Source of the DNA: Campylobacteraceae bacterium | Lineage (GTDB): Bacteria; Campylobacterota; Campylobacteria; Campylobacterales; Sulfurovaceae | Length of the DNA stretch: 64,000 bases | Assembly: GCA_027065385.1 (NCBI GenBank) | Contig: JAMOOP010000067.1 | Location: forward strand, 1 to 64,000 | Reading direction: 5' to 3' | Shown here: positions 34,843 through 52,081 of the stretch, one piece after another | How positions within the stretch are numbered: position 1 is the first letter of the stretch | How the letters are laid out: the number at the start of each line of letters is the position of its first letter | Notes under the pieces: model-generated | What the model saw: the letters and a program-made list of their open reading frames with translations, nothing else | Databases searched by the model: none | Told to the model about the DNA's origin: nothing | Made by a program: the position numbers and the translations under genes

Positions 34843-36010
34843 TTAATTCCCCTCTTCCACATTATCACTGTCTCCAATATACACCTTTTCATTCACAAAC
34901 TCACCCAAAAATCTATTATTTCTAATAGTCGAGCCACTATTACCCTCCCAGTTATGGTTAATAGCTACTCCCCACTGTGTAAAATCACCTCTACTATTGA
35001 CTATATTATTTTCGATTATCGAGTCAGTTATATGTTGTTCGAGATAAATCCCTGAATCCCATGCTGTATTCCAATCTTCATATAGGGTCTCTCGCTCTCC
35101 TCCTGCTACCATATTGGCATCTATAATATTATTGTTGGCTATATGCAATCTATCAGAGTAGTAGAGATAGATACCACTAAAATCACTGTTTTCAATATAG
35201 TTTCCAGAGATATTGGAATCTGCTAGATTATTAATCTCTATACCATGCAGTCGTGAGTCTGTGATATTGTTATCTTTTATATAAATATTTGTACTTCTGT
35301 GAGAGAGTGGTGTTCGTAAGTTTCCATCTTCGTCATTATGGTCAACCTGTCTTGCTACTTTTATACCTGCTGATTTAGGATTTTTTATAGTGTTATTCTT
35401 GATAGTCACATTATACGATGGCAGTGACAAAAAGATACCTTGTGAGACAGAGTTATTCATAATATTATCAAAACAGCTAACATTTCTATCTAAATAGAGT
35501 GCAATAAGTCCACTATGCAAAATATTACCACTAACCACACCATCTTTTTGCAGACTAAAAGAGAGAACATCATTTCCATTATTATTGGTAAAAATCTCAT
35601 TGTTTATTACCTGATTATGGTGGTCGAGATTGCCATTTTCTATCATCTCTAGTGGGTCACTATCCCCTCCTGCGAAATAGACAGTAAACATATTGTTTGA
35701 GCCATAGAGTATAGAGTCTCTTAGTGTAATATGATGATGTTTTGCTGTTACAAATGTTGTATTGTTGCAGTTTGGATTCTGTTTGAGTGTAATATTTGAT
35801 ACAGTTACATAGTTAGCACCTACATAAAATAGGTCTATACAATCTTTGGAGGTATCAGCTTGGATAATCGTACCCTCTTTTGACTCTCCCCTAAAGGTCA
35901 TGCCATCGGTTTTGAGGTCTAGCTCTTTTGATACGGTGTATGTTCCATTTTTAACAACTATATTACTCTCTCCTGAACTAAGTGCTGATATAATCTCCTC
36001 TACGCTATTG
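34843..36010 (-). other. Segment encoding the C-terminal right-handed parallel beta-helix (PbH1-type) domain
   Basis: Repeated N-N-x-I/F rungs: IYIKDNNITDSRLHGIEINNLADSNISGNYIENSDFSGIYLYYSDRLHIANNNIID. Confidence 0.75.
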
Positions 36011-39000
36011 ATAGTATCAGTACATAGACTTTCCATATTATCAGAGATATTACTACTACCTTGATAGATATTCCACCCTGTCTCACAGAAGCTTTTATAT
36101 CCATCTGCTTTGGTTGTATATTGGGTAGCATCATCTATAGTCAATCTCTTGTCTGCTATCCCCTCTATATTGGATAGACCATAAATATCTATTAGCTCCG
36201 AGTTGTTTTGAATACTAAGTGAACCTGTAATCTTTTTGAGACGAATGATACCATCAAGTTTGGTTATACTACTATCTTCTATAGCAAAATCTCCATCAAC
36301 TTCAAGCAGTGCCTCAAAATCATTTATATCCTTATCACTAACCAAACTACAAGCAATATCTCCACTATATTTACCTAACTCTTCATCATAATTACTATAA
36401 AAAGTCAAAGAGTCAATAGAGCATCTTCTTCCTAATATATCTCTTAGTCTGTTATGGGTTGTTGCTTGATAAATAGTTCCATCACAAACTAGAGAGATAT
36501 TATCATCTATATTTCCACCTACTCCGTAAATATCCCATCTAGCAGAACAGAAGTCACTACTATCTGTTGCTTTTGTGGTGTAACTATGAGTTGTATCAAT
36601 ATATATTTTGTCTCCATCTACTGCAAAGATATTCGAGATACCACTAATATCAGCTAGTGAACTGTTGTGATAGATTTTTAATCTACCTCGTATATTAATG
36701 AGACTGGAGAGAGCATCCAAGTTAGTTATGCTATTACCTGATATATCAAAATCTCCCAATACTTTAGTCAAACTACTCAATCCATCTATATTTTCAATAT
36801 TGCTATTTTGTAGATATAAATATCCCTCAACCTCTACAAGATTAGAAAGACCATCTATATTTGTAAAATCATTATTGTTAAGTGAAAAACTCCCTTTGAC
36901 CTTTTTTATTCGACTAAATAGACTCAACTCATCACTACTCATCCCACTATATGAGCAGTCTAAACTACCATCAAAGACACCTGTAGTTGCATCAAATTTT
37001 TCATCAAATTGTGAGTAAGAGACTGAACACTTCTCTTCCATTAGATTTTTGAATTTTTGGTCATCAGATATATCCTCTCCTGCTCCACACACTAGAGACA
37101 TGTTATCATCTATATCTCCATTGTAAGTTCTTAGATTCCAAGTAGTGCTACAAAATTTTAAATTTTCATTGGCTTTTGTAGTATATTGGTCTAAATCAAT
37201 ATAGAGTGTTTGTCCCTCTGTTCCATTAATATTACTTAATCCTGCTATATTCGTTAGAGTGCTATTTATATAGATATTTATAGACCCATTTACTATTGAT
37301 AGATTTGTTAATCCATTAAGATTTTGTAGTTTATTTCTTGAAAAATCTATACTTCCTGATGAGGTTAAAGAGCTTAATCCATCTATATTTTCTAATTTAT
37401 TAGAATAAAAATAGAGATTCCTCGCTGTTTTTAAACTACTTAATCCATTCAGATTAGTCAGTAAATTATTATTAAGATGAAAACTACTTCCTATTGATTC
37501 AAGAGAATTTAACCCATCTACATTTTCTAATTTATTATTTTGAAGATAAAAAGTATTTGTTACCTTTTTTAGATTGATTAATCCATCTACATTAGTTAAT
37601 TGATTTTGATACAAATAAAAATAACCTTTAACCTCTTTAAGTGCTTTAAAATTTAATAAATTCTCACTTGTTAATCCTCTATTGTAACAATTTAGATTAG
37701 TATTATAAACCCCCGTCTCTTCATCAAAATTGTTATAAAAACTAGATGATGGTACACCACATTTAGTACCCAAAATATCCCTAAACTTATCAACATCAGT
37801 AGGAGTATAGGCTGTATCACTTACACATATTTGTGTCATATCATCAGCTATATTTCCATCTTTGTCTCTTAAATCCCATGTTTGACTACAAAAATTTGAA
37901 TCTTTATCTGCTTTGGTAGTATATTGATTAGCATCTATATATAGATATTTTCCTTTTTTAGCTTTTAGATTTTTGATACCTGATATATCTGTTAATGTAG
38001 GGTTCTTTTGAATATAGAGATAATATCTTGAAATTGTTGTAAGATTACTCAATCCATTTAAATTTGTAAGCTGATTATCTTGTAGATTCAAGCTATATCC
38101 TACAGTTGTAAGACTACTTAGTCCATCTACATTAGTTAATTTATTGATTTGTAGTTCAAGATTACCTTTAATAGTCGTTATATTACGAAGTCCATCAATA
38201 TTTGTAAGTTGATTATGATATAGAGATAGTGAATTATTGATTTGAACCAAAGAGCTTAATCCATCTACATTTTCAAGCTGATTATAGTAGAGATAGAGTC
38301 CACCAACAGTGGTTAATTTACTTAAACCATTAACATTGGTTAGTTTATTATTTTGCAAATATAGACTTGAACCAACAAACTCTAAATTACTAAGTCCATC
38401 TATATTTTCCAATTGATTTTGATAAAGATAAAAATATTTTGTCACTTTTTTAAGATTACTCAATCCATCCACATTAGTTAATTGATTATGATAAAGGTCA
38501 AGGTATCCTCGTACCTCTTTAAGCCCTTTAAAATTGAGCAAATCCTCACTTGTTAGAGCTTTTTCTCGACAAGATATATCTGTATTATATACCCCTGTCT
38601 CTGCATCATAATGGTCATAAAAAGTAGAAGATGAGATACCACACTTATCACCCAATACATTACGCAGTTTATCAGCATCAGAGAGTTCCACTCCCTCCAT
38701 ATCACAAACCTGTGTCATATCATCAGGAATATTTCCATCTTTGTCTCTTAAATCCCAAGTAACCGAACAAAAATCAGAATCTTTTGGTGCTTTTGTTGTG
38801 TATTGGTCTTTATCTATAAAAATAAGTTTACCATTTGTTCCTACTATATTTTGAATACCTGATATATTTTTTAGATTTTCATTATTGTAGATTTTTAAAT
38901 ATCTAAGAGATGTCAAGTTGCTTAATCCATTTAGATTTATTAGTTTATTGTTATAGAGTCTTAAATCATACTTTATAGTTGTTAAGTTGCTAAGACCATT

Positions 39001-42000
39001 AACATTAGTTAAATTGTTATCATAAAGGTCTAAATATCCATTTACTGTTTTAAGATTTGCCAAACCATCAATATTAAGCAGTTGATTTTTATATAAAGAG
39101 AGCGTTCCAACAGATGTCAATGAATTTAAACCATCAATATTTGTTAACTTATTGTATGAGAGATTTAAAGTACCATCTACTGTTGTTAAATTGGACAGAC
39201 CATCAATATTTACAAGTATATTATTAGATAATCCTAAAACCCATCCAATACTTTTTAGATTATATAACCCATCAAGATTTATTAATAGATTATGATGTAA
39301 AGTAAAAGTTGAAGTGACATTACTTAATTTAGATAATCCATTAGTACTATTAATTTCATTATATTCAAGATAAAAATTTCTACCTACTTTTTCTAAATTA
39401 CTTAGTCCATCAAGATTTACAATTTTGTTATATCTTAAATTCAAATCTCCTGTAATCTCTTTTAATACAATAAAACTTTTTAATTTTTCACTATCAAAGT
39501 TACCTTTACTCCAATAAGCATACCCTGAACAATCTATATTACCATTATAAATCCCTGTATCTTCATCAAATCGATTATAAAAAACAGAAGATAATATATT
39601 ACACTTTTCACCCAAAGTATCCCTAAAGTTATCCACATCACTAAGCTTATAATCTTCTCCCATATCACAAATCTGATTCATGTCATCAGCTATATTGGTT
39701 GTAGCATCTCTTAAATCCCATTTAACACTACAAAATTTAGAATCTTTTGGGGCTTTTGTTGTGTATTGATTCCCTCCGTCTATATATAAAAGTTTACCAT
39801 CTATTCCCTCTAAGTTTTGAATTTCTGATATGTCTGTTAAGTTTTCATTATTATAAATTTTTAAATACCTAAGAGAGGTTAGATTACTTAATCCATTGAG
39901 ATTTATTAGTTTATTGTTATAGAGTCTTAAATCATACTTTACAGTTGTTAAGTTGCTAAGACCATTAACATTAGTTAAATTGTTATCATAAAGGTCTAAA
40001 TATCCATTTATTGTTTTAAGATTTGCCAAACCATCAATATTAAGCAGTTGATTTTTATATAAAGAGAGCGTTCCAACAGATGTCAATGAATTTAAACCAT
40101 CAATATTTGTTAACTTATTGTATGAGAGATTTAAAGTACCATCTACTGTTGTTAAATTAGATAACCCATCAATATTTACAAGTTTATTACTAGATAACCC
40201 AAAACCCCCACCAATACTTTTTAAATTATGTAACCCATCAAGATTTATTAATAGATTATGATGTAAAGTAAAAGTTGAAGTGACATTACTTAATTTAGAT
40301 AATCCATTACTACTATTAATTTCATTATATTCAAGATAAAAATTTCTACCTACTTTTTCTAAATTACTTAGTCCATCAAGATTTACAATTTTGTTATATC
40401 TTAAATTCAAATCTCCTGTAATCTCCTTTAATACAATAAAACTTTTTAATTTTTCACTATCAAAGTTACCTTTACTCCAATAAGCATACCCTGAACAATC
40501 TATATTACCACTATATATCCCTGTCTCTTCATTAAAAGCATTATAAAAAGTATTAGATGATATATTACACTTTTCACCCAAAGTATCCCTAAACTTATCC
40601 ACATCACTAAGCTTATAATCTTCATCTACATCACAAATCTGACTCATATCATCAGCTATATTAGTAGTAGCATCTCTTAAATCCCATTTAACACTACAAA
40701 ATTTAGAATCTTTTGGTGCTTTTGTGGTGTACTGATTCCCTCCATCTATATATATAGCTTTCCCATCTGTCCCCTCTACATTTTGAATACCTGATATATC
40801 TATTAGCCTCTCATTTTTAGTAATATTAATATAACTTCCTACATGCGTCAAATTATAAAGTCCATTTAGATGTGTCAACTTATTATTATGCAAATACAGA
40901 TAATTTCCTACACTTGTTAAAGAGCTTAATCCATTAATATTTGTTAAATTATTATTATATAGACTTAAATAACTACCAACTGTTTTTAAATTAATCAACC
41001 CATCCACATTTGTTAATTTATTACTTTGAAGATACAGATAACTGGTTACTTTTTTAAGATTACTTAAACCATTTAGATTAGTAAACTGATTAGAATCAAG
41101 TCTTAAATACCCTTTTACCTCCTTTAAAGCCTTAAAATTCTCCAAGTCACTATCAGTTAATCCCTTATTATAACAAAAGATATTTGTACTATAAACCCCT
41201 GTATCTTTATCAAAATATCTATCGAAATTACTCTCACTAACCCCACACTTATTTTTTAGAACACTTTTTAGATACTCCGAACGGTCTATATCGGTAATCC
41301 CCTCTATACTAATACCACTACTCTCACCTCTATCATTAAATGCTTTTAGTGTAATAGCATACGAGGTCTCTTCTGCTAGATTTAGTATCTCATAGCTTGT
41401 AGCATTTATATCTAAAACAGCTTGTTTGACACCATCTATATAGAGATTAAACCCTCTCTCATTATCAGAGTTATCACTCCAACCTATGGTTAGACGGTTA
41501 TGTCCTATATCTAGTAGTTTTAAACCACTTGGTTTAGCAGGTTTTGTTTTGTCATAGGTAAGTGTGATAGAGAGAGTCACACTATCACTCTCTCCTGCTT
41601 GATTAGTGGCACTCAATGCTAGAGTATAATATTTTCTAGTTGCTTCATCAAATTGTGCAGTTGATGATACTTTTATAATACCATCACTACCTATCTCGAA
41701 GTTTTCAGCCCCATCACCTGTTAGATTGAAACTAACAATCTCACTATCCCCTTTGGTTGCAAATCCAACTGTTCCTATAACTCTACCTGCTGTTGCATTC
41801 TCTTCTATGTACCCTTTGAACTCATAGAGTATAGGCTTTATCTCTGCAATATTTTTAATAGTAATATTGACATCTACTGCTTCACTCTGTGCTTTGTCAT
41901 TGGTTGCTATAGCTTTTAATAGATATTTTTTAGTCGCCTCATAATCAATTACTTTTGTTGTTGTGATATTCCCCTCTATATCTACTCCAAAACTTTCAGC

Positions 42001-45000
42001 TCCTGTTCCTGATAGATTTATGGCTTTAATAGGTGAACTACCTATGCTTTTTATCTCTATCTTGCCAATAGTTGTACCAATAACTACATTTTCAGATATA
42101 GTTAAATTGGTATCTGTAAGTATAGGCTCATCATCTATAATGTTACCAACTGTAATATGCAATGAAGCAGGTAGTGACTGCCCTAAACCATTTCTAGCAT
42201 AAATCTTTAAATTATACTCTTGTTGAGTCTCAAAATCCAATGCCTTTTTGACTTTTATAACTCCATTTTTATCAATCTCAAAATCATCACTCCCCACACC
42301 CTCTATCCATACCTGTTCTACTACTCGTTTTTTACTAACGATTTTGACACTACCAACCAAATCTCCAACAGCCACACTCTCCTCAACACGAAAAGTTTTC
42401 TCCTCAATCTGTGGCACACTGTCAAGACTCTTAACAACAGATATATTCAAATAGACCATATTGCTTTTATTACCACTTTCATCTATAGCAACCAAAGAGA
42501 GGTGATATTTTGCTGTTTGGGTACTATTAAATTGTGCATTGGATGCTACTCTAAGCTCTCCATTGCTTCCAAGTACAAAATTACTATTTCCATCTCCTGT
42601 GAGTTCAAATCCATTAAGAGTATGACCACCAAGAGAGACTATATGAACTATACCAACTAAAGAGTTAGCTTCACTATCATCATAAACTGTACCACTAAAC
42701 CCTTTTATCTTGATACTATCATCCATATCATAGATACGGATATGCACAAGCGAACTACGGCTCTCTCCTGCACTATTGGTAGCATAGGCTCTCAAATCAT
42801 AGGCTGTTCTTTTTTCAAAATCTATATCTGCCCCTGCTTTGACTTTGATTGTTCCATCATTTTCTATAACAAAATTCTCACTACCACTCCCCTCTAGTCT
42901 CATAGATATAATTGGTGTGGCAGTGGAGATAATCGGTATAGCATTTAGTGAAGTCCCCTCTAGTGCATTCTCATCTACATAGGTGTTGAGTTGACCAAGT
43001 AGTGGGCGATTGCTTTTTACATATATAGAGACCCTTTGAGGTTGGCTTGTTCCATGCTCATTGGTGGCAGTGACTACCATATTGAGAGTGCTAAATTGAT
43101 AATCAACTAGATGTTGGGTAGCTGATATAGTTATAATACCTGAACTATCAATCTCAAAATTATCACTACCTACTCCTGTAAGTTGATAGCTCTTTATAGC
43201 ACTCAAGCCTTGATTGGTTACACCCACTTGCACAACAGCATGACCTACACTCGCTTCAAAATCAACCTCTGCTGATGTTGCACTAAGCACAGGAACATCA
43301 AGCTTATTATCCACTACTACATGAATAGATGCTGGTCTGCTTGTACCATTTGCATTGGTAGCAACTACAGAGAATATATAATCTCTCTTGGTCTCATAAT
43401 CCAAAGTAGCATTAGTAGCCAAACTCAATTTACCATCTGTAGTAATATCAAAAATATCATGATACTCTCCAACTACAGTAACACTATCAACAGCTATAGG
43501 AGAAGCTATATCTAGTTGAGTAATCAAACTTCCACCTACCACATCCTCTGCTATGTGAACCTCTTTTGGTGTAATAGACGGTACATCTAACACATCATCT
43601 ATAAATATTGTTATCCGTTGAGGTCTGCTATTGCCACTATCTGATAGTGCTGTAACCTCTATATGTTTGACTCTATACTTCTCAAAATCCAAATCAGCCC
43701 CAGAGGCTACAAATATCTTGCCACTCTCATCAATAGTGAACTCATCTTTGTTAGTACCACCTATAGTATAGCCCGTAATTGCCCCTTTGTTTGAAGCAAA
43801 AACCACTTGCCCCACATACGCACCCACAGTTGCATCTTCGGCTATATGTCCATCTTTGAACTCTGTAAATATCGGACTATCAACAATATCAGAGACAATC
43901 ACCCTAAACTTGACAGGGCGACTCTCTCCACTACTATTTGAAGCTTTGAGCAAAATATCATACTGATTTTGAACCTCATAGTCCAAACTCTCTCCTGCTT
44001 TGAGAGAGACCACACCACTGTTGTCTATCTCAAATATACTATCTTGGGAGACAATCTCATAAGAGCTAATCGCACTACTACCCTCACTAAGTACTTTGAC
44101 CTTACCAAGCTCATAAGCCCCTACGGTATCTTCTGATACCTGAACCCAAGTAGCTCCAAGAATCGGTTTTGGATTGGATGTTGTGCTAGGTTTGGCATAG
44201 ATAAACGACTCTGCATCAGCACTCAAATCCTCTCCTCTATAGGCTTTTTGGATAATAGGTAGTAGTTGGGAAGTGTAATCTTTGACCAACCAATTTCGGT
44301 TGGCACTTGCTAACCAATAGAGTATATCATCTCTACCAAGAGGGTTAGCAGATTTGGGATAGAGTTTCTCTATTAGAACGCTTTTGGCAATCCCATTTAA
44401 TCTATCATCAACTCCATAACGGTCATAGTTCGCTCCCAATAAATCTTTTGAGACCTCAAAAGAGAGTTCGGTCAAGATATTGACCTTGTACTCATCTCTA
44501 AGTAACTCCTCTTTGCTCACAATAGCGTGAATCGTTCCTTTTAGAGGTGTATAGTCACTATCCATCTCAAAATCACTATTGGCATCAATATCAACACCAC
44601 CCATTACCTCCATAATAAAATCACCATCATACCCTGCAATCTTCTGCATAAAAGTTATCTCATCAGCTGTTTGAGCTACTCGCCCCTCTAGCACCACAGG
44701 CAGATAGATAATCCCTGAACTATCTATATCTGTACCTATAGTTGTCTCACCCTCATAGAGATACTCTATCTCTTTTTTACCAAAATCAGAAGCTTTATAG
44801 ATACGATATTTTGCCCCTGCAATAGCTCCACCTAATTGAGCTTGATTTAAAAATGTGAGAACCCTATACTCACAAGGGATACAGCCACAACTTTTAGCAT
44901 TCTCTACACACATCTCTTTTTCGATATTGCGAATCTCATTAATAGTAGTCACACTAGAACCCAAAGAGTTAGGATGATAACTAGACCAACTAGCCCCACC

Positions 45001-48000
45001 ACCACTTACAAACTGATACTCACCACCATATCCACCACTACCCCCTGCTGTTGGCAAAGAGGTTTGAGTAGGCACAGTCTCAACAGTAGCAGGTTTAGTT
45101 GGGTCAGCACGAGAGATAAAAATATCAGCAATATGCCCCAAATTATAATCCTCTTTTGTTTTTATCTCTTTTTTATAGACTCTTGTTCCTGTTGGGGTAT
45201 TGATGGTTACGGTGACTATATCAGGTAGATTACTACTATCTATAGATGCTAGATTGGTTGGGTTTACCTCTATGGCGTAGTGTCCTTGATAGACCTCATC
45301 TAGGGTTAACTCTCCTGAACCGATATTATAAGAGGTACAGCTTTTGCTCTGCTCTTGCATTAGTGGATTGGTTGTTAGAAGTGAAGCTTTTTGGTTTTGC
45401 CATATTGTGGTGATGGTAAAAAGTCCGTTTGGTGGGATTGCACTATTTTGGCACTCTTTTTTATCTATGACATTAACTGTTCTAGTTACATTTGCCTCAT
45501 TACCATCACTATCTTTTACAGAATATTTAACAATGTATGAACCTATTTTTGAAGTATTTAATTCACTGCTATCTATTACAATTTCATTTGTAAGATTTCC
45601 ATCTTCTATATCTAATGCAGTTGCATTTAATTCTTGATATTTACTATTTTTCAATATGGATATATTATTGTCACCAATAAGTGTGATTGTAGGTATTGTT
45701 CCTATACCACTATTGAAATCTATCTTTGTACTATATCCTTTTACTATAGTATCAAAATGAATTATATTATCAGAGTTCAAATTTGATACATAACTATAAG
45801 CTTTTTGTATAGCTTTTGGATTATTTGTATTACTATTTTTTAATTGAGTATGTAAATCTTCAATTATCGTTTCTTCCTCTATTCCTGTATATCTACTAAA
45901 TTCCTCCAAAATAGCATCATACCATGCAATAACTATCGAATTATTATTTTCATCTTTATCGATAAGTTTTCCATCTTTGAAATATCTATTATCTATTGGT
46001 ATCTTATAAATATCTTTTTTTTCTTCTTTTTCCAATGTATAAATAGTTGTATTTAAGTTTATATTTTTTTGGGTATCTCGATAATAGATTACAATATGTA
46101 TATCTCTTTTTCTCTCTGATAATAGTCCTTTTTGTTCCTCATTCAGTTGAAAACATAGATGATATATTCCACTTTTTTTATCAAATTCAAACCATCTTGA
46201 ACCCTCTTTATATTGTTGATTTTCTGTTAAGCCCAAATATGGTATATATTCAGCAGAATCATATATTTTAGTTTTATACCCTTGTGAAACAGGAGATATT
46301 ACAAAAAGTTTATGAGACTCTTTAAAAACTATATCTTGTTTAATCTTACTAGATTCAGGTTGTTTTATATCTATTTCTGATTCAACTTCAAAAATACCTG
46401 CTGATAGATGTGTAATTCCTGTATTATTTTTATAATTCTTCCAATATTGATTTCCATAATCTTGTTTAAATAGTTCACTTAAATTATCCATATAACTAAT
46501 ATAATAATAGCTATCTTCATTTTTATGTTCCCAAAATTCATAAGGGTCAGAAACTATACCTAAATCATCATCAATTCCTAAAGAGGCATCATATTCTTTT
46601 CTTATTGCTTGATTTTTATTTTTATCATATTCTAAATATCTTGAAAAAGTATTATTTGTTTTAAGCGTAGATTCATAAGAGTTTTTTACATGTGTAATAG
46701 GTGATGTAAAAATAGATTTTGTTTTCATTTCATTATCATACTTATACACATGAAATTTAAAATTTGCAAAATCTTCAAATGTTGTACCTAATAAATTAGT
46801 ATGTTTATAAGAAGCATAAATTTCTTTTGTTATATTTTCACCTATCTTGCCATAATTACCTATTTGCATCTCATAACTATAAGTCACACCACTGATTGCT
46901 AGAGTTGCATCACGATTATTGACATTATATGGTATAAATTTACCTTTTGGTGCATTTCCATATAAAAAATAACTCTCATAACTATATCTATTATCAGAAT
47001 AATTGTCATAAATATTTAAACCATCAGGATAAAGTAAGAAAGAGTATTTTAAATAATCGGCTGAAAATGGGAAATTAATTTCATTATATTTTTCAATTGT
47101 AAAAGGAACAACTCTAGGTGCTGTTATAAAATCATAAGCAAATTTACCACCTGTATTTGCTATTTTGGAGAGGTCAATAATGACTCTTGCCAAACCATTA
47201 GCAGGTATTGCATAAGAGGCAATTCTCGCAGAAAACTCTGATAATATATTTGATAAATCATCTGCTGATTCTTTTACTACTTCCAAAATCATATTTTTTG
47301 TATAAGCCATAATCATTTTATTATCAATCTTTTGTACTTGAGTATAAAGTTTATCTATAGAGCTAGAAAGAGATACCATATCTTTAATTTCACTCATATC
47401 TTTTTTGATAATTGAGTAAATTTTCGCACTAGAATTTAAAAATATAATTTTAGATGCATATTTGGCAATTTGTCTATTTTCTTGACTTATTCCATCATGT
47501 TTTAACATAATTCTTGCAAAAATTCTAGCCAATTGAGCTGTTGATTTTTTATGATATTTATCACTATTTCCTACCTCTGCATTAGCGATTATAGAAATTG
47601 CAGATAAAGAGTTTAAATCTTTAGGATAATAAAAATATCCATCTGAAACAATTTTACCTAACAACTGTTTTAACATTATTTCCGTAGCTATTGTTTTAGC
47701 ATACTCTTTACCTTTTCCTTGATTAATTAAATCAGAAAAATCACTTAATGATAGTTTATCTATCTTATAGACCCTAGCAAAAAATGCAGGAAGTGCTTTA
47801 TTTTCTCCTTGTATAATTTTAGAAGGAGCAACTGTAATTGTGTTTAAAAAATCATCTATATCATCAGAGTGTGATAACAACTTTTTTGATATATCTTTTA
47901 CTTTTTTATTGTCAGCTAATGTAGCAAAGATATTAATAACTTCTAATTTATCTCTAGCAATATTATTCCACTCTTTAATACTTTCTTTGGCTTTCTTTAC

Positions 48001-51000
48001 ATTTTCAATTATTTTATCTATTTTTTTACTAAGTTTACCAAAAAGTTTTTTTCCTTTACCACTACTCATAGTATCTAAAACTATACTAAATAATGTTCCT
48101 CCATTCATTAATGCAGGTTTAGAAAACCTATCAAATTCAGTATATAAAACATACTCTTTTTTAGCAGTATCTGTATAATCCAAATCAGCATAAGAAAATT
48201 CTGTTCTACTTTTCATTCCATCTTTAAAAGGATTAATTGCATTTTTTATATCAAAAAAAGCCTCTTGTCTTTGTAACATTTTTGTTTTTTTCAAAAGAAC
48301 TTCTATAGATGCAGTATTAAAATCTTCTCTACTTAGAAGCCCATAGTTAAGACTTCTACTTGTATCTATAATTATTTTAGAATCATCAGAACTAATCTCA
48401 AATCCACCTTTTTTTACTGGTTCTGTTGAGTCTATATCTTTTGGAGTTACTACAATGTTTACTATATCAGTGGCTTTATTTCCCATATTATCAGTTATTT
48501 CTAAAGTAATAATATGTTTACCTATTGAAAAATTATCTTTGGTAAAAGTAGCATTATTACTTAAAACAGTATCCCCCTCTTTCCATATATAAGAGACAAT
48601 GAACAGAGCATTTTTAGCTATGCTATTTGAAGCATCTAATCTAATGGTTTCCCCCTCTTTAACAGTTTGGTCTTCTCCTGCATTAGCTATAAATTTTGTA
48701 ATTTTTTCTAACTCAACATCTTGATTCTGTTCAAATCTATTATCTAAAATAATACCTGTAATATTTTTTTCAAAATAATTTTCTGCTTTAATATTTAATG
48801 TGTATTCTTTTATCTCTTCTGATTTCTTATTGAGTAATGGTATATTAATGATTTGATAATTTCCATAAATATCTGTAGTTGTTGAAGCTAGTATTTTATC
48901 TGTATTGGTTTCAAATATTTTAAGAGTAACATTTGGTATAGCTTCTTTAGATAAAGTATCATTAATTTGTCCTATTAAGCCACCTACTTTAGTTGAAGTT
49001 AACGGAATTAAGTTAACATCTATATTTTTTTTATCAGCTCTAAATAAAACTGTCTTTTCCTGATAACCATTAGACTTTATGTGGAGTTTATAAGAGCTAT
49101 TTTTATTTGTAAAATATAACCGAATTGTACCATCATCTGCAATTGGTGTATATGGATATTTACTTACTTCTTCTTTACTACCTATTTTTTCCAAAGTAAC
49201 CTCTGTATGGTGGTCTAAATGGTCATTTGTATCTTTATCTTTAATTGTTACTAAGACTTCATATACAGGAAATGAAGTATTTTCTATTTTAGCGTTTACT
49301 TCATAATCTGTTTTTTTGTTTTTTAATTTGCAAGTTCCTGATATTTTATAACTTTTATAATTTTGATTATGAAAAAAACTGTATTCAGTAGAACTAGTTT
49401 TTTCATCTTTTGACTCCCATGTTTTTCCATCAATTGTGTGTTCTATTTTAAAATGGCTTGATTGCAATTTGAAACTACTGGATACCATAAAATCCAATTT
49501 AATATTTGATAAAAATGGATTTGGTAAAGTATGATTAATATAAATAAGATTCCCATCAATAATATCTTGTGCTAATTTCAAAGCATTACCTGCATTTAAT
49601 ATAGGAATTGGATGTTTTAATTTAACTAAAGTTTTTTTCCCATATATTACAACATATCTCTCTTTTACATACTCTGTTGCACTATTAATTAATATTGATT
49701 TAACTTCTTTAGCTGTAAAATTTGGATTTAATGAAAATATTAAAGAGGCAACTCCTGTAACCACTGGTGCTGATGCTGAAGTTCCATCAAATCCTTTTCT
49801 ATCTCCTAAACCATATTCTCGAAAATTAGTTGAGTAATAAGTATTTTCACCTTTTGTACTTTTGAACTCTGTAGGAGCAACAATATCTACAGTTTCACCA
49901 TAATCACTATAATCGGTAAGTTTTTTTAAAGTAAATTTTTCATTAAGTGTTATTGCTCCTACAATTATTACATTATCTAATTTATTAAGATTTTTATTTT
50001 CATCTAAATGTAAAGAACCATTTTGAGTTTTAGCATCTCTTCCATCATTACCAGTTGCCCAAATATGAAGAATATTATTATATACTTCTGCTGTCTTTCT
50101 ATATGTTCTAGTTTGTTCAAATCCTACTTCTTCACTCCCTAAAGTATCTCCATTCCAAATATAATGATTATCCATACATCCCCACGAATTATTTACTAAT
50201 TTTATAGATGAATCACTTTCTAATAGTTGTGTATATTTAATTGGTGTATCTATAGAACAATCACTAGTTCTTGAATTATCAAATTTGATACTTTCTGGCT
50301 CAAATTGGGAAATAACATTAACTATTAATTTAGAATTCCAATTTATACCTAATACTCCATCTTTTTTCTTTGGATTTCCAACTAATGTACCACAAACCCC
50401 TGTACCATGTGTTGATTTTTTTTCAGAAAAAAGGTTTTTTTTGAATTTATTTTCCAAATCTTGATGTTGATAAAAACCCTCATCAATTACACCAATAGTT
50501 ATATCTTTATTCCCCGTGGTATATTCCCAAGCTTTTTTTATATCTATCGATTCTAAATGCCAATTATCTCCACCATCATTAAATTTAGAAGTATAATTAG
50601 GTGGTATGGTATATGAAAAAATCTTTTTTATTTTGTTTCCAGCATAAGCTCTTTTATCTACAGAAGCAATACCTTTTATAAATTTTAATAATTCAATAGA
50701 TTTTTTATCATCTGTTTCAATTAATAAGCCATTAATAGTATTCCACCCTTTAATACTAAAACTTGAATATTTTGAAACTATATTTCTTATCTCATTTTCA
50801 GACAAAGAACGAGAATATACCCAATATTGATTTTTAATTACTCCTTGTAAAGTTTCAATATCTTTGCTTCCATCATTCCCTTCAATCTGTTTTTCATCAA
50901 ATGTAAAAATTTCATATATAGTAAATTTTTCTACTCTTTTTTTATTCTTTTCATTTATAACTTGAAGAGTATATTTTCCTTTAATAGTTGGAGTTAAATT

Positions 51001-52050
51001 AATTGTTTTATTATTATTGATTGAATTTAATATTAAATTGCTACCATGAGGTTGAGAGATTATAGACCAAGTTAACTTAGAAGAGTAATCTGTAGATAAG
51101 CCCTCTATTGAAATATTAAACTCCTGATTTAAAGTTGGAGAGTTAGAATAAACAATTGTAGCATCTGATAAACTAAAAGAATTATTTGTTGGTGGATTAT
51201 TTCCACTCCCTCCACCATTTCCACCAAAACCACTACTACTCCCACTATTATTTTCACCCACAAAAATTGAATTATTAATCCTCTCAATAGGATTTTTATC
51301 ATTTTTAATACTATCCAAAAAATCAATAGCTATTGATACACTATTTGAACTATCTGTAATATTAGTTAGGATTTTAATGGAAGCCAAATAAGCGGGGTCA
51401 TTTTCAGGAAAATCATTATTAACTACATTAGTTTTAGTACCCAAAAGTGTTATAAACTTTAATGCAACCTCTACTTTATTACTAATATAATCTTGTCGTT
51501 TTTGTGCAATAGATAACTCTTGGGTTGTAAGATTGGGAAAATTTTCTGACGATAGTTCAATAGTTAGAGAAGTTTCCATAAAATCTGATACCATATCTGA
51601 ACGACTATTACCACTATCTAAATATTTTGTCCAATGCTTGATTCCATCCGTGTCTCCTGCTTTACCTAAAGAATTTTTATAGATAGCCTCTACAAACTCT
51701 TTGTTGGTCATATTACTATATGTCGATATAAAAGTTGGGTGTTTTACAAAATTAGATGAAATTTCTTTTAAAACTATAGAGAGACTCTTACTACCATGTA
51801 AAGCTCTATTTTTCCAAAAATTTAGACCATCTATATCTGGAGCTCTATTAAAATAAGCAATATAAAGTCCTGATATTTTTTCTTCTAATTTAAGATTTCT
51901 TTTGTTATATTCACAAATAGCTATATTTTGCTTTTCTAAATTTAAATTTGAAGAAATATTTTTTTCTACAGAAAAAGCATAAGAATTTAAACTAAAAATA
52001 TAAAACCCAACTAAAATAATAAAGCGTAAAATTGATAGATTTAATTTTAT
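34843..52050 (-). CDS. Giant secreted/surface multidomain protein (~5735 aa with extended N-terminus): signal peptide - DUF4214 - S8 subtilase - CarboxypepD_reg/PKD - helical region - Ig/HYR - 9 cadherin-like - Fn3 - 7 capped LRR cassettes - right-handed beta-helix
   Basis: ORF track gives 34843..51711; the same frame is open to 52059. Subtilase: IGVIDEGFYQ (Asp), HGTGVCGTLVG (His), ATGND (Asn), GTSASAPVVTGVASL (Ser). Other domains recognised by repeat pattern. Confidence 0.85.
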   Translation of the reverse strand: MKLNLSILRFIILVGFYIFSLNSYAFSVEKNISSNLNLEKQNIAICEYNKRNLKLEEKISGLYIAYFNRAPDIDGLNFWKNRALHGSKSLSIVLKEISSNFVKHPTFISTYSNMTNKEFVEAIYKNSLGKAGDTDGIKHWTKYLDSGNSRSDMVSDFMETSLTIELSSENFPNLTTQELSIAQKRQDYISNKVEVALKFITLLGTKTNVVNNDFPENDPAYLASIKILTNITDSSNSVSIAIDFLDSIKNDKNPIERINNSIFVGENNSGSSSGFGGNGGGSGNNPPTNNSFSLSDATIVYSNSPTLNQEFNISIEGLSTDYSSKLTWSIISQPHGSNLILNSINNNKTINLTPTIKGKYTLQVINEKNKKRVEKFTIYEIFTFDEKQIEGNDGSKDIETLQGVIKNQYWVYSRSLSENEIRNIVSKYSSFSIKGWNTINGLLIETDDKKSIELLKFIKGIASVDKRAYAGNKIKKIFSYTIPPNYTSKFNDGGDNWHLESIDIKKAWEYTTGNKDITIGVIDEGFYQHQDLENKFKKNLFSEKKSTHGTGVCGTLVGNPKKKDGVLGINWNSKLIVNVISQFEPESIKFDNSRTSDCSIDTPIKYTQLLESDSSIKLVNNSWGCMDNHYIWNGDTLGSEEVGFEQTRTYRKTAEVYNNILHIWATGNDGRDAKTQNGSLHLDENKNLNKLDNVIIVGAITLNEKFTLKKLTDYSDYGETVDIVAPTEFKSTKGENTYYSTNFREYGLGDRKGFDGTSASAPVVTGVASLIFSLNPNFTAKEVKSILINSATEYVKERYVVIYGKKTLVKLKHPIPILNAGNALKLAQDIIDGNLIYINHTLPNPFLSNIKLDFMVSSSFKLQSSHFKIEHTIDGKTWESKDEKTSSTEYSFFHNQNYKSYKISGTCKLKNKKTDYEVNAKIENTSFPVYEVLVTIKDKDTNDHLDHHTEVTLEKIGSKEEVSKYPYTPIADDGTIRLYFTNKNSSYKLHIKSNGYQEKTVLFRADKKNIDVNLIPLTSTKVGGLIGQINDTLSKEAIPNVTLKIFETNTDKILASTTTDIYGNYQIINIPLLNKKSEEIKEYTLNIKAENYFEKNITGIILDNRFEQNQDVELEKITKFIANAGEDQTVKEGETIRLDASNSIAKNALFIVSYIWKEGDTVLSNNATFTKDNFSIGKHIITLEITDNMGNKATDIVNIVVTPKDIDSTEPVKKGGFEISSDDSKIIIDTSRSLNYGLLSREDFNTASIEVLLKKTKMLQRQEAFFDIKNAINPFKDGMKSRTEFSYADLDYTDTAKKEYVLYTEFDRFSKPALMNGGTLFSIVLDTMSSGKGKKLFGKLSKKIDKIIENVKKAKESIKEWNNIARDKLEVINIFATLADNKKVKDISKKLLSHSDDIDDFLNTITVAPSKIIQGENKALPAFFARVYKIDKLSLSDFSDLINQGKGKEYAKTIATEIMLKQLLGKIVSDGYFYYPKDLNSLSAISIIANAEVGNSDKYHKKSTAQLARIFARIMLKHDGISQENRQIAKYASKIIFLNSSAKIYSIIKKDMSEIKDMVSLSSSIDKLYTQVQKIDNKMIMAYTKNMILEVVKESADDLSNILSEFSARIASYAIPANGLARVIIDLSKIANTGGKFAYDFITAPRVVPFTIEKYNEINFPFSADYLKYSFLLYPDGLNIYDNYSDNRYSYESYFLYGNAPKGKFIPYNVNNRDATLAISGVTYSYEMQIGNYGKIGENITKEIYASYKHTNLLGTTFEDFANFKFHVYKYDNEMKTKSIFTSPITHVKNSYESTLKTNNTFSRYLEYDKNKNQAIRKEYDASLGIDDDLGIVSDPYEFWEHKNEDSYYYISYMDNLSELFKQDYGNQYWKNYKNNTGITHLSAGIFEVESEIDIKQPESSKIKQDIVFKESHKLFVISPVSQGYKTKIYDSAEYIPYLGLTENQQYKEGSRWFEFDKKSGIYHLCFQLNEEQKGLLSERKRDIHIVIYYRDTQKNINLNTTIYTLEKEEKKDIYKIPIDNRYFKDGKLIDKDENNNSIVIAWYDAILEEFSRYTGIEEETIIEDLHTQLKNSNTNNPKAIQKAYSYVSNLNSDNIIHFDTIVKGYSTKIDFNSGIGTIPTITLIGDNNISILKNSKYQELNATALDIEDGNLTNEIVIDSSELNTSKIGSYIVKYSVKDSDGNEANVTRTVNVIDKKECQNSAIPPNGLFTITTIWQNQKASLLTTNPLMQEQSKSCTSYNIGSGELTLDEVYQGHYAIEVNPTNLASIDSSNLPDIVTVTINTPTGTRVYKKEIKTKEDYNLGHIADIFISRADPTKPATVETVPTQTSLPTAGGSGGYGGEYQFVSGGGASWSSYHPNSLGSSVTTINEIRNIEKEMCVENAKSCGCIPCEYRVLTFLNQAQLGGAIAGAKYRIYKASDFGKKEIEYLYEGETTIGTDIDSSGIIYLPVVLEGRVAQTADEITFMQKIAGYDGDFIMEVMGGVDIDANSDFEMDSDYTPLKGTIHAIVSKEELLRDEYKVNILTELSFEVSKDLLGANYDRYGVDDRLNGIAKSVLIEKLYPKSANPLGRDDILYWLASANRNWLVKDYTSQLLPIIQKAYRGEDLSADAESFIYAKPSTTSNPKPILGATWVQVSEDTVGAYELGKVKVLSEGSSAISSYEIVSQDSIFEIDNSGVVSLKAGESLDYEVQNQYDILLKASNSSGESRPVKFRVIVSDIVDSPIFTEFKDGHIAEDATVGAYVGQVVFASNKGAITGYTIGGTNKDEFTIDESGKIFVASGADLDFEKYRVKHIEVTALSDSGNSRPQRITIFIDDVLDVPSITPKEVHIAEDVVGGSLITQLDIASPIAVDSVTVVGEYHDIFDITTDGKLSLATNATLDYETKRDYIFSVVATNANGTSRPASIHVVVDNKLDVPVLSATSAEVDFEASVGHAVVQVGVTNQGLSAIKSYQLTGVGSDNFEIDSSGIITISATQHLVDYQFSTLNMVVTATNEHGTSQPQRVSIYVKSNRPLLGQLNTYVDENALEGTSLNAIPIISTATPIISMRLEGSGSENFVIENDGTIKVKAGADIDFEKRTAYDLRAYATNSAGESRSSLVHIRIYDMDDSIKIKGFSGTVYDDSEANSLVGIVHIVSLGGHTLNGFELTGDGNSNFVLGSNGELRVASNAQFNSTQTAKYHLSLVAIDESGNKSNMVYLNISVVKSLDSVPQIEEKTFRVEESVAVGDLVGSVKIVSKKRVVEQVWIEGVGSDDFEIDKNGVIKVKKALDFETQQEYNLKIYARNGLGQSLPASLHITVGNIIDDEPILTDTNLTISENVVIGTTIGKIEIKSIGSSPIKAINLSGTGAESFGVDIEGNITTTKVIDYEATKKYLLKAIATNDKAQSEAVDVNITIKNIAEIKPILYEFKGYIEENATAGRVIGTVGFATKGDSEIVSFNLTGDGAENFEIGSDGIIKVSSTAQFDEATRKYYTLALSATNQAGESDSVTLSITLTYDKTKPAKPSGLKLLDIGHNRLTIGWSDNSDNERGFNLYIDGVKQAVLDINATSYEILNLAEETSYAITLKAFNDRGESSGISIEGITDIDRSEYLKSVLKNKCGVSESNFDRYFDKDTGVYSTNIFCYNKGLTDSDLENFKALKEVKGYLRLDSNQFTNLNGLSNLKKVTSYLYLQSNKLTNVDGLINLKTVGSYLSLYNNNLTNINGLSSLTSVGNYLYLHNNKLTHLNGLYNLTHVGSYINITKNERLIDISGIQNVEGTDGKAIYIDGGNQYTTKAPKDSKFCSVKWDLRDATTNIADDMSQICDVDEDYKLSDVDKFRDTLGEKCNISSNTFYNAFNEETGIYSGNIDCSGYAYWSKGNFDSEKLKSFIVLKEITGDLNLRYNKIVNLDGLSNLEKVGRNFYLEYNEINSSNGLSKLSNVTSTFTLHHNLLINLDGLHNLKSIGGGFGLSSNKLVNIDGLSNLTTVDGTLNLSYNKLTNIDGLNSLTSVGTLSLYKNQLLNIDGLANLKTINGYLDLYDNNLTNVNGLSNLTTVKYDLRLYNNKLINLNGLSNLTSLRYLKIYNNENLTDISEIQNLEGIDGKLLYIDGGNQYTTKAPKDSKFCSVKWDLRDATTNIADDMNQICDMGEDYKLSDVDNFRDTLGEKCNILSSVFYNRFDEDTGIYNGNIDCSGYAYWSKGNFDSEKLKSFIVLKEITGDLNLRYNKIVNLDGLSNLEKVGRNFYLEYNEINSTNGLSKLSNVTSTFTLHHNLLINLDGLYNLKSIGWVLGLSNNILVNIDGLSNLTTVDGTLNLSYNKLTNIDGLNSLTSVGTLSLYKNQLLNIDGLANLKTVNGYLDLYDNNLTNVNGLSNLTTIKYDLRLYNNKLINLNGLSNLTSLRYLKIYNNENLKNISGIQNIVGTNGKLIFIDKDQYTTKAPKDSDFCSVTWDLRDKDGNIPDDMTQVCDMEGVELSDADKLRNVLGDKCGISSSTFYDHYDAETGVYNTDISCREKALTSEDLLNFKGLKEVRGYLDLYHNQLTNVDGLSNLKKVTKYFYLYQNQLENIDGLSNLEFVGSSLYLQNNKLTNVNGLSKLTTVGGLYLYYNQLENVDGLSSLVQINNSLSLYHNQLTNIDGLRNITTIKGNLELQINKLTNVDGLSSLTTVGYSLNLQDNQLTNLNGLSNLTTISRYYLYIQKNPTLTDISGIKNLKAKKGKYLYIDANQYTTKADKDSNFCSQTWDLRDKDGNIADDMTQICVSDTAYTPTDVDKFRDILGTKCGVPSSSFYNNFDEETGVYNTNLNCYNRGLTSENLLNFKALKEVKGYFYLYQNQLTNVDGLINLKKVTNTFYLQNNKLENVDGLNSLESIGSSFHLNNNLLTNLNGLSSLKTARNLYFYSNKLENIDGLSSLTSSGSIDFSRNKLQNLNGLTNLSIVNGSINIYINSTLTNIAGLSNINGTEGQTLYIDLDQYTTKANENLKFCSTTWNLRTYNGDIDDNMSLVCGAGEDISDDQKFKNLMEEKCSVSYSQFDEKFDATTGVFDGSLDCSYSGMSSDELSLFSRIKKVKGSFSLNNNDFTNIDGLSNLVEVEGYLYLQNSNIENIDGLSSLTKVLGDFDISGNSITNLDALSSLINIRGRLKIYHNSSLADISGISNIFAVDGDKIYIDTTHSYTTKATDSSDFCSARWDIYGVGGNIDDNISLVCDGTIYQATTHNRLRDILGRRCSIDSLTFYSNYDEELGKYSGDIACSLVSDKDINDFEALLEVDGDFAIEDSSITKLDGIIRLKKITGSLSIQNNSELIDIYGLSNIEGIADKRLTIDDATQYTTKADGYKSFCETGWNIYQGSSNISDNMESLCTDTINSVEEIISALSSGESNIVVKNGTYTVSKELDLKTDGMTFRGESKEGTIIQADTSKDCIDLFYVGANYVTVSNITLKQNPNCNNTTFVTAKHHHITLRDSILYGSNNMFTVYFAGGDSDPLEMIENGNLDHHNQVINNEIFTNNNGNDVLSFSLQKDGVVSGNILHSGLIALYLDRNVSCFDNIMNNSVSQGIFLSLPSYNVTIKNNTIKNPKSAGIKVARQVDHNDEDGNLRTPLSHRSTNIYIKDNNITDSRLHGIEINNLADSNISGNYIENSDFSGIYLYYSDRLHIANNNIIDANMVAGGERETLYEDWNTAWDSGIYLEQHITDSIIENNIVNSRGDFTQWGVAINHNWEGNSGSTIRNNRFLGEFVNEKVYIGDSDNVEEGN
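36015..41290 (-). repeat. Segment encoding seven tandem LRR cassettes with Cys-containing caps at both ends
   Basis: Each cassette: N-cap (e.g. KCGVSESNFDRYFDKDTGVYSTNIFC), n x ~22-aa LRR (LxLxxNxLxNxxGLsnLt), C-cap (e.g. YTTKAPKDSKFCSVKWDLRDATTNIADDMSQIC). Confidence 0.85.
38690..40620 (-). repeat. Recent in-frame tandem duplication, period 966 bp (322 codons)
   Basis: Anchors 39481/40447 and 39061/40027 are offset by exactly 966; at least 131 bp identical (39061-39191 vs 40027-40157). Confidence 0.85.
41560..44165 (-). repeat. Segment encoding nine ~95-aa cadherin-like repeats
   Basis: Recurrent pattern V/I-x-E-D/N-x-x-x-G...FxID-x-xGxI-x-V...LDFE...Y-L-x-x-x-A-T-N-x-x-G-x-S-R-P...D-x-x-D-x-P. 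Confidence 0.75.
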
Positions 52051-52055
52051 ATTAT

Positions 52056-52081
52056 CCCCCTAATATAAATATATTATATCA
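52056..52081 (-). promoter_or_regulatory. Extended -10 promoter (TGATATAAT) and RBS (AGGGGG) for the giant gene
   Basis: Minus strand ...TGATATAATATATTTATATTAGGGGGATAATATAAAATTA; -10 at 52073-52081, G-run 5 nt before codon 52050-52048. Confidence 0.55.

Follow-up and report, generated by a model that had tools for sequence, protein, structure and literature searches.

The window, the whole 64,000-nucleotide stretch that was analysed (contig JAMOOP010000067.1 of assembly GCA_027065385.1, a Campylobacteraceae bacterium), was found to contain on its minus strand a giant frame of 5738 codons, open from a TAG at 52062-52060 to the stop at 34843. The first ATG/GTG/TTG of the frame was found only after 116 codons (51711) and none earlier, from the upstream in-frame stop to the conserved N-terminus. 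With the full NCBI start list of table 11, the ORF runs from an ATA (34843..52050, minus strand) and contains 5735 amino acids. A sequence-only reading had placed the true N-terminus above the called ATG, in a continuation without stop or ATG/GTG/TTG; the continuation was confirmed, the frame being open for 116 codons above 51711. The features of the start region and of the gene are given in Table 1. The neighbouring locus was found to be of exopolysaccharide type, with two UDP-sugar dehydrogenases and a glycosyltransferase.

Table 1. Features of the start region and of the giant gene (energies against the assumed canonical anti-SD)
Feature	Coordinates	Strand	Evidence or remark
Extended -10-like element TGATATAAT	52073..52081	(-)	consensus match alone, not above regional shuffle expectation
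Shine-Dalgarno-like AGGGGG	52056..52061	(-)	5 nt ahead of ATA; -9.3 kcal/mol
ATA, inferred start codon	52048..52050	(-)	homologous position to the ATG start of relatives in alignments
Predicted signal peptide (I/M)KLNLSILRFIILVGFYIFSLNSYA↓FS	51970..52050	(-)	sequence, hydropathy, leaders of relatives at the same place
First DUF4214 unit	51694..51885	(-)	Pfam 25.6 bits; AlphaFold helices; outside the called ORF save the last residues
Called ATG (MTNKEF)	51709..51711	(-)	internal Met; column mostly Leu in relatives; no SD
Second DUF4214 unit and helical tail of the N-terminal module	51271..51759	(-)	Pfam DUF4214 66.4 bits, alignments, AlphaFold
Whole gene from ATA	34843..52050	(-)	signal peptide, two DUF4214 units, passenger domains

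By composition, about 11 stops and about 5 canonical starts were expected in the 116-codon extension and zero of either was observed, a stop-free run of this length having a chance of about 8e-6, and the remaining two frames of the minus strand contained 13-14 stops over the extension. Scored alone against Pfam DUF4214, the extension reached 25.6 bits (E 1.3e-5), above the Pfam cut-off of 23.2 bits, and its DUF4214 portion was found to be 54-60% identical to relatives. The pN was 0.27-0.33 in the extension versus 0.25-0.36 after 51711, and the pS 0.43-0.78 versus 0.51-0.71. The alignments A1 and A2 traverse the extension and contain invariant L62, Y63, R69, A70, D72, G75, W79, F101 and Y111. 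The AlphaFold model of the N-terminal module reaches high confidence at residue 51 and beyond (block pLDDT 80-98), with the extension belonging to the helical fold and helices present at residues 73-111. By these comparisons the extension is shown to be conserved coding sequence, with equal conservation on both sides of 51711. The two DUF4214 units were found to be too diverged for pairing by BLAST.

A start of translation at 51711, with the extension left untranslated, would use the first canonical start codon of the frame, but the stretch above it is conserved coding sequence across genera, no Shine-Dalgarno (SD) sequence was found at the called ATG, and such a start would cut the first DUF4214 unit and remove the leader; its probability is negligible. 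In relatives the column of this Met was found to be internal, in the middle of the DUF4214 pair.

The leader was found to contain a hydrophobic core (hydropathy maximum 2.58 over 11 residues) followed by an SYA↓FS site, and matching leaders, either signal peptide or lipobox, were found in relatives. The upstream N-terminus with its predicted signal peptide and DUF4214 unit is supported by the alignments of relatives. Behind the N-terminal module, the passenger domains were found to comprise subtilase (S8), PKD, Ig-like, cadherin, Fn3, leucine-rich repeats and beta-helix. The 5,735-residue multidomain product is, since it carries a predicted Sec leader, most likely exported to the surface or the medium. 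No sequence relative was found in the PDB. The AlphaFold fold resembled phycobilisome linker domains weakly (best E 0.07), and therefore no function is drawn from this likeness.

The N-terminal 260 residues have relatives within the genome itself (the paralogue C17 and further ones), in four more genomes of the family, of which three belong to the same genus and one to a different genus, and in records elsewhere under the titles Campylobacteraceae, Sulfurimonas, Thiotrichaceae and Desulfobulbaceae; no relative was found in viral contigs. The occurrence of ATG at this codon in orthologues had been named as a check, and in the alignments ATG was found at the position of the window's ATA in 9 of the 9 leader-bearing relatives (L013, L029/L008, L030, L031, L032/L014, L033/L009, L034, L035/L028 and L039/L010), directly before the signal peptide or lipobox, so that an ATA conserved at the start was found in 0 of 9. 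The C17 paralogue starts with ATG, and its alignment extends through the signal peptide (FRYILVFIFSLNF versus LRFIILVGFYIFSLNS). A second genome with this gene was not found, a 901-residue middle piece being without match in 175 genomes of the family. Because relatives carry ATG there, the Met at 51711 is internal and 51711 has no SD, the true N-terminus is placed upstream; ATG is, as judged from the alignments, the ancestral codon at 52050-52048, converted to ATA by a single G-to-A change.

The AGGGGG ribosome binding site claimed at 5-nt spacing before this ATA was confirmed, and an AUA therefore stands at SD-compatible spacing. Computed against the canonical anti-SD, which was assumed and may not be the 16S tail of this genome, the pairing energy at 52050 was found to be stronger than in 26 of the 27 ATG-start genes of the window (one was stronger), and 20 of 5768 ATA triplets of the window (0.35%) had an equally good SD. 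The AUU seven codons in (52032), proposed earlier as an alternative start, was rejected as it has no SD. Since none of the other candidate start codons has an SD, the AUA at 52050 remains the sole credible start for the sequence as given, and initiation there is read from its context. The claimed extended -10, TGATATAAT, was indeed present; however, such sites were no commoner than in shuffled sequence, six promoter-like sites being found in the region versus 5.6 expected, without excess.

A sample of the genome (639 kb, 523 ORFs) was found to contain, among the outliers checked, only one long ORF (at least 300 codons) whose coding sequence, as homology shows, reaches far upstream of the first canonical start, namely the giant gene. 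Among the other long open runs ahead of a first start, many resemble antisense shadow frames or short ORFs arising by chance. A Crp/Fnr-type regulator ORF (L064:5187-5843, G000:C80) was found to contain no ATG/GTG/TTG before codon 57, with ATG near the N-terminus in relatives, and is a case of non-canonical start or start loss. A TPR-like ORF (L135:5587-6210, G000:C145) was found to have an open run of 96 codons upstream of the first canonical start and is possibly a truncated or frameshifted gene.

In rnpA (L053:16417-16764 in G000:C167, and L158-L217), no ATG/GTG/TTG start was found in 28 of 28 readable members of the genus, which were found to contain a conserved in-frame ATT. This ATT overlaps the end of rpmH (AGA-TTR) with AAAGG upstream in nearly all, and the first 20 codons are without ATG/GTG/TTG. 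In the sample of the order, the ATT pattern was found in 11 of 14 readable members, one being the window's own genome again, and one further member has both; two members with ATT changed to ACT contain TTG at codon 9. As the ATT overlapping rpmH is conserved without a canonical start, the essential gene rnpA probably uses AUU initiation in the genus and in much of the order. No paper naming an rnpA AUU start was found in a search of open full texts. Two further candidates, infC as a second rare start and rpsL as a non-canonical start, were rejected, both starting with TTG (infC in the genus).

The reading considered probable is that of a working but weak AUA start of an exported giant protein, in which both initiation and its strength are deduced from the start site. 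The N-terminal module, a signal peptide with two DUF4214 units common to other exoproteins of related bacteria, would have started at an ancestral ATG which a single G-to-A change turned into ATA; the strong SD with its 5-nt spacer would hold ribosomes at the AUA, and the initiator tRNA would start there with reduced efficiency, so that the exported protein would still be made. This reading is favoured because AUA starts are documented in Staphylococcus aureus, where they are already known for infC, ccpN and citZ (PMC13009471). The probable non-NUG initiation of rnpA in the lineage and the intact 17.2-kb frame also speak for it; the TTG of infC in the genus, not a rarer codon, and the GGGGG of relative L029 ahead of an ATG count against it. 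The S. aureus AUA starts of infC and ccpN were seen by ribosome profiling, and that of ccpN is conserved (PMC13009471). Those behind extended SDs work at about 10-30% of AUG, the non-canonical starts giving about 10% and ccpN up to 30% in rich medium (PMC13009471).

An unlikely explanation that still carries weight is that the organism has ATG and that the metagenome assembly shows ATA through a base error or through a base taken from a minority strain. The assembly consists of 175 contigs with 5.83% estimated contamination, ATG is present in every leader-bearing relative and the rest of the start site is intact; however, single-base errors striking a start codon are rare, and widespread damage of the genome found no support in the 639-kb sample, in which the Crp/Fnr-type ORF was the one other clear gene-specific case among the 523 ORFs.

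Silencing of the gene, or of its export, in this strain by a recent ATG-to-ATA mutation is rather improbable. An ancestral ATG and the usual weakness of AUA as a start fit such a loss, and 51711, lacking an SD, would give a leaderless product with a broken first DUF4214 unit; yet the 17.2-kb frame was found intact, with no stop or frameshift, and with so strong an SD some initiation at the AUA is likely. In a simple mutation model of the author's choice, an unselected frame is expected to gain about 0.8 nonsense mutations for every 0.001 substitutions per site, and full silencing would therefore be younger than about 0.001-0.003 substitutions per site.

It had also been proposed that the start serves to hold down synthesis. 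A selected low-efficiency AUA limiting synthesis of a very costly protein agrees with the size of about 600 kDa, with the strong SD and with the conserved AUA/AUU starts that lower expression of ccpN and cvfC1 in S. aureus (PMC13009471), but the ATA is unconserved, ATG being the start of every leader-bearing relative, the strength of the SD is inherited, and the middle of the gene has no orthologue in the 175 family genomes. One relative, L029 (same gene as L008), contains GGGGG-ctgta-ATG (-8.4 kcal/mol on the same assumed anti-SD) where the window contains GGGGG-ataat-ATA, and this pairing of the same GGGGG and spacer length with ATG argues against the SD as compensation for ATA. Because the ATA is unconserved and a strong SD is already present with ATG, the regulatory purpose is unsupported, and selection for a weak start is highly improbable. 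The wider proposal, a stably kept AUA of low efficiency that would set the dosage of the exoprotein in a lineage with ordinary non-NUG initiation (AUU in rnpA), is very doubtful.

A gene caller that accepts only ATG, GTG and TTG would remove the export signal and half of a domain from a protein that is among the largest of the organism, and the protein would therefore be misplaced in the cell. If the AUA works, a giant exoprotein joins the few documented bacterial AUA starts and, together with the conserved AUU of rnpA, makes non-NUG initiation in the order directly testable.

Among known systems, the protein resembles the DUF4214 (Pfam PF13946) exoproteins of Campylobacterota and other bacteria, which contain a signal peptide or lipobox, then two DUF4214 units in tandem and a C-terminal passenger that varies; these relatives start with ATG, and the subtilase-cadherin-LRR-beta-helix passenger of the window protein was unmatched, going by its 901-residue middle piece in the 175 family genomes. 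The same N-terminal module was found in two leaderless proteins, L019 (G000:C154) and L020 (G006:C23), fused to a metallopeptidase-like region (HELGHALGLKHP) and RTX-like repeats. In contrast to the window protein, these start with MAT... directly before the first DUF4214 unit, without signal peptide, and have RTX-like ends, which suggests type I secretion; the DUF4214 module is, on this sequence evidence, probably common to two export routes. As regards the start codon, the gene is like infC, ccpN and citZ of S. aureus in containing an AUA behind a strong SD, and for citZ, too, the AUA is limited to one lineage, whereas the ATA described here is found in one assembly and is a predicted start.
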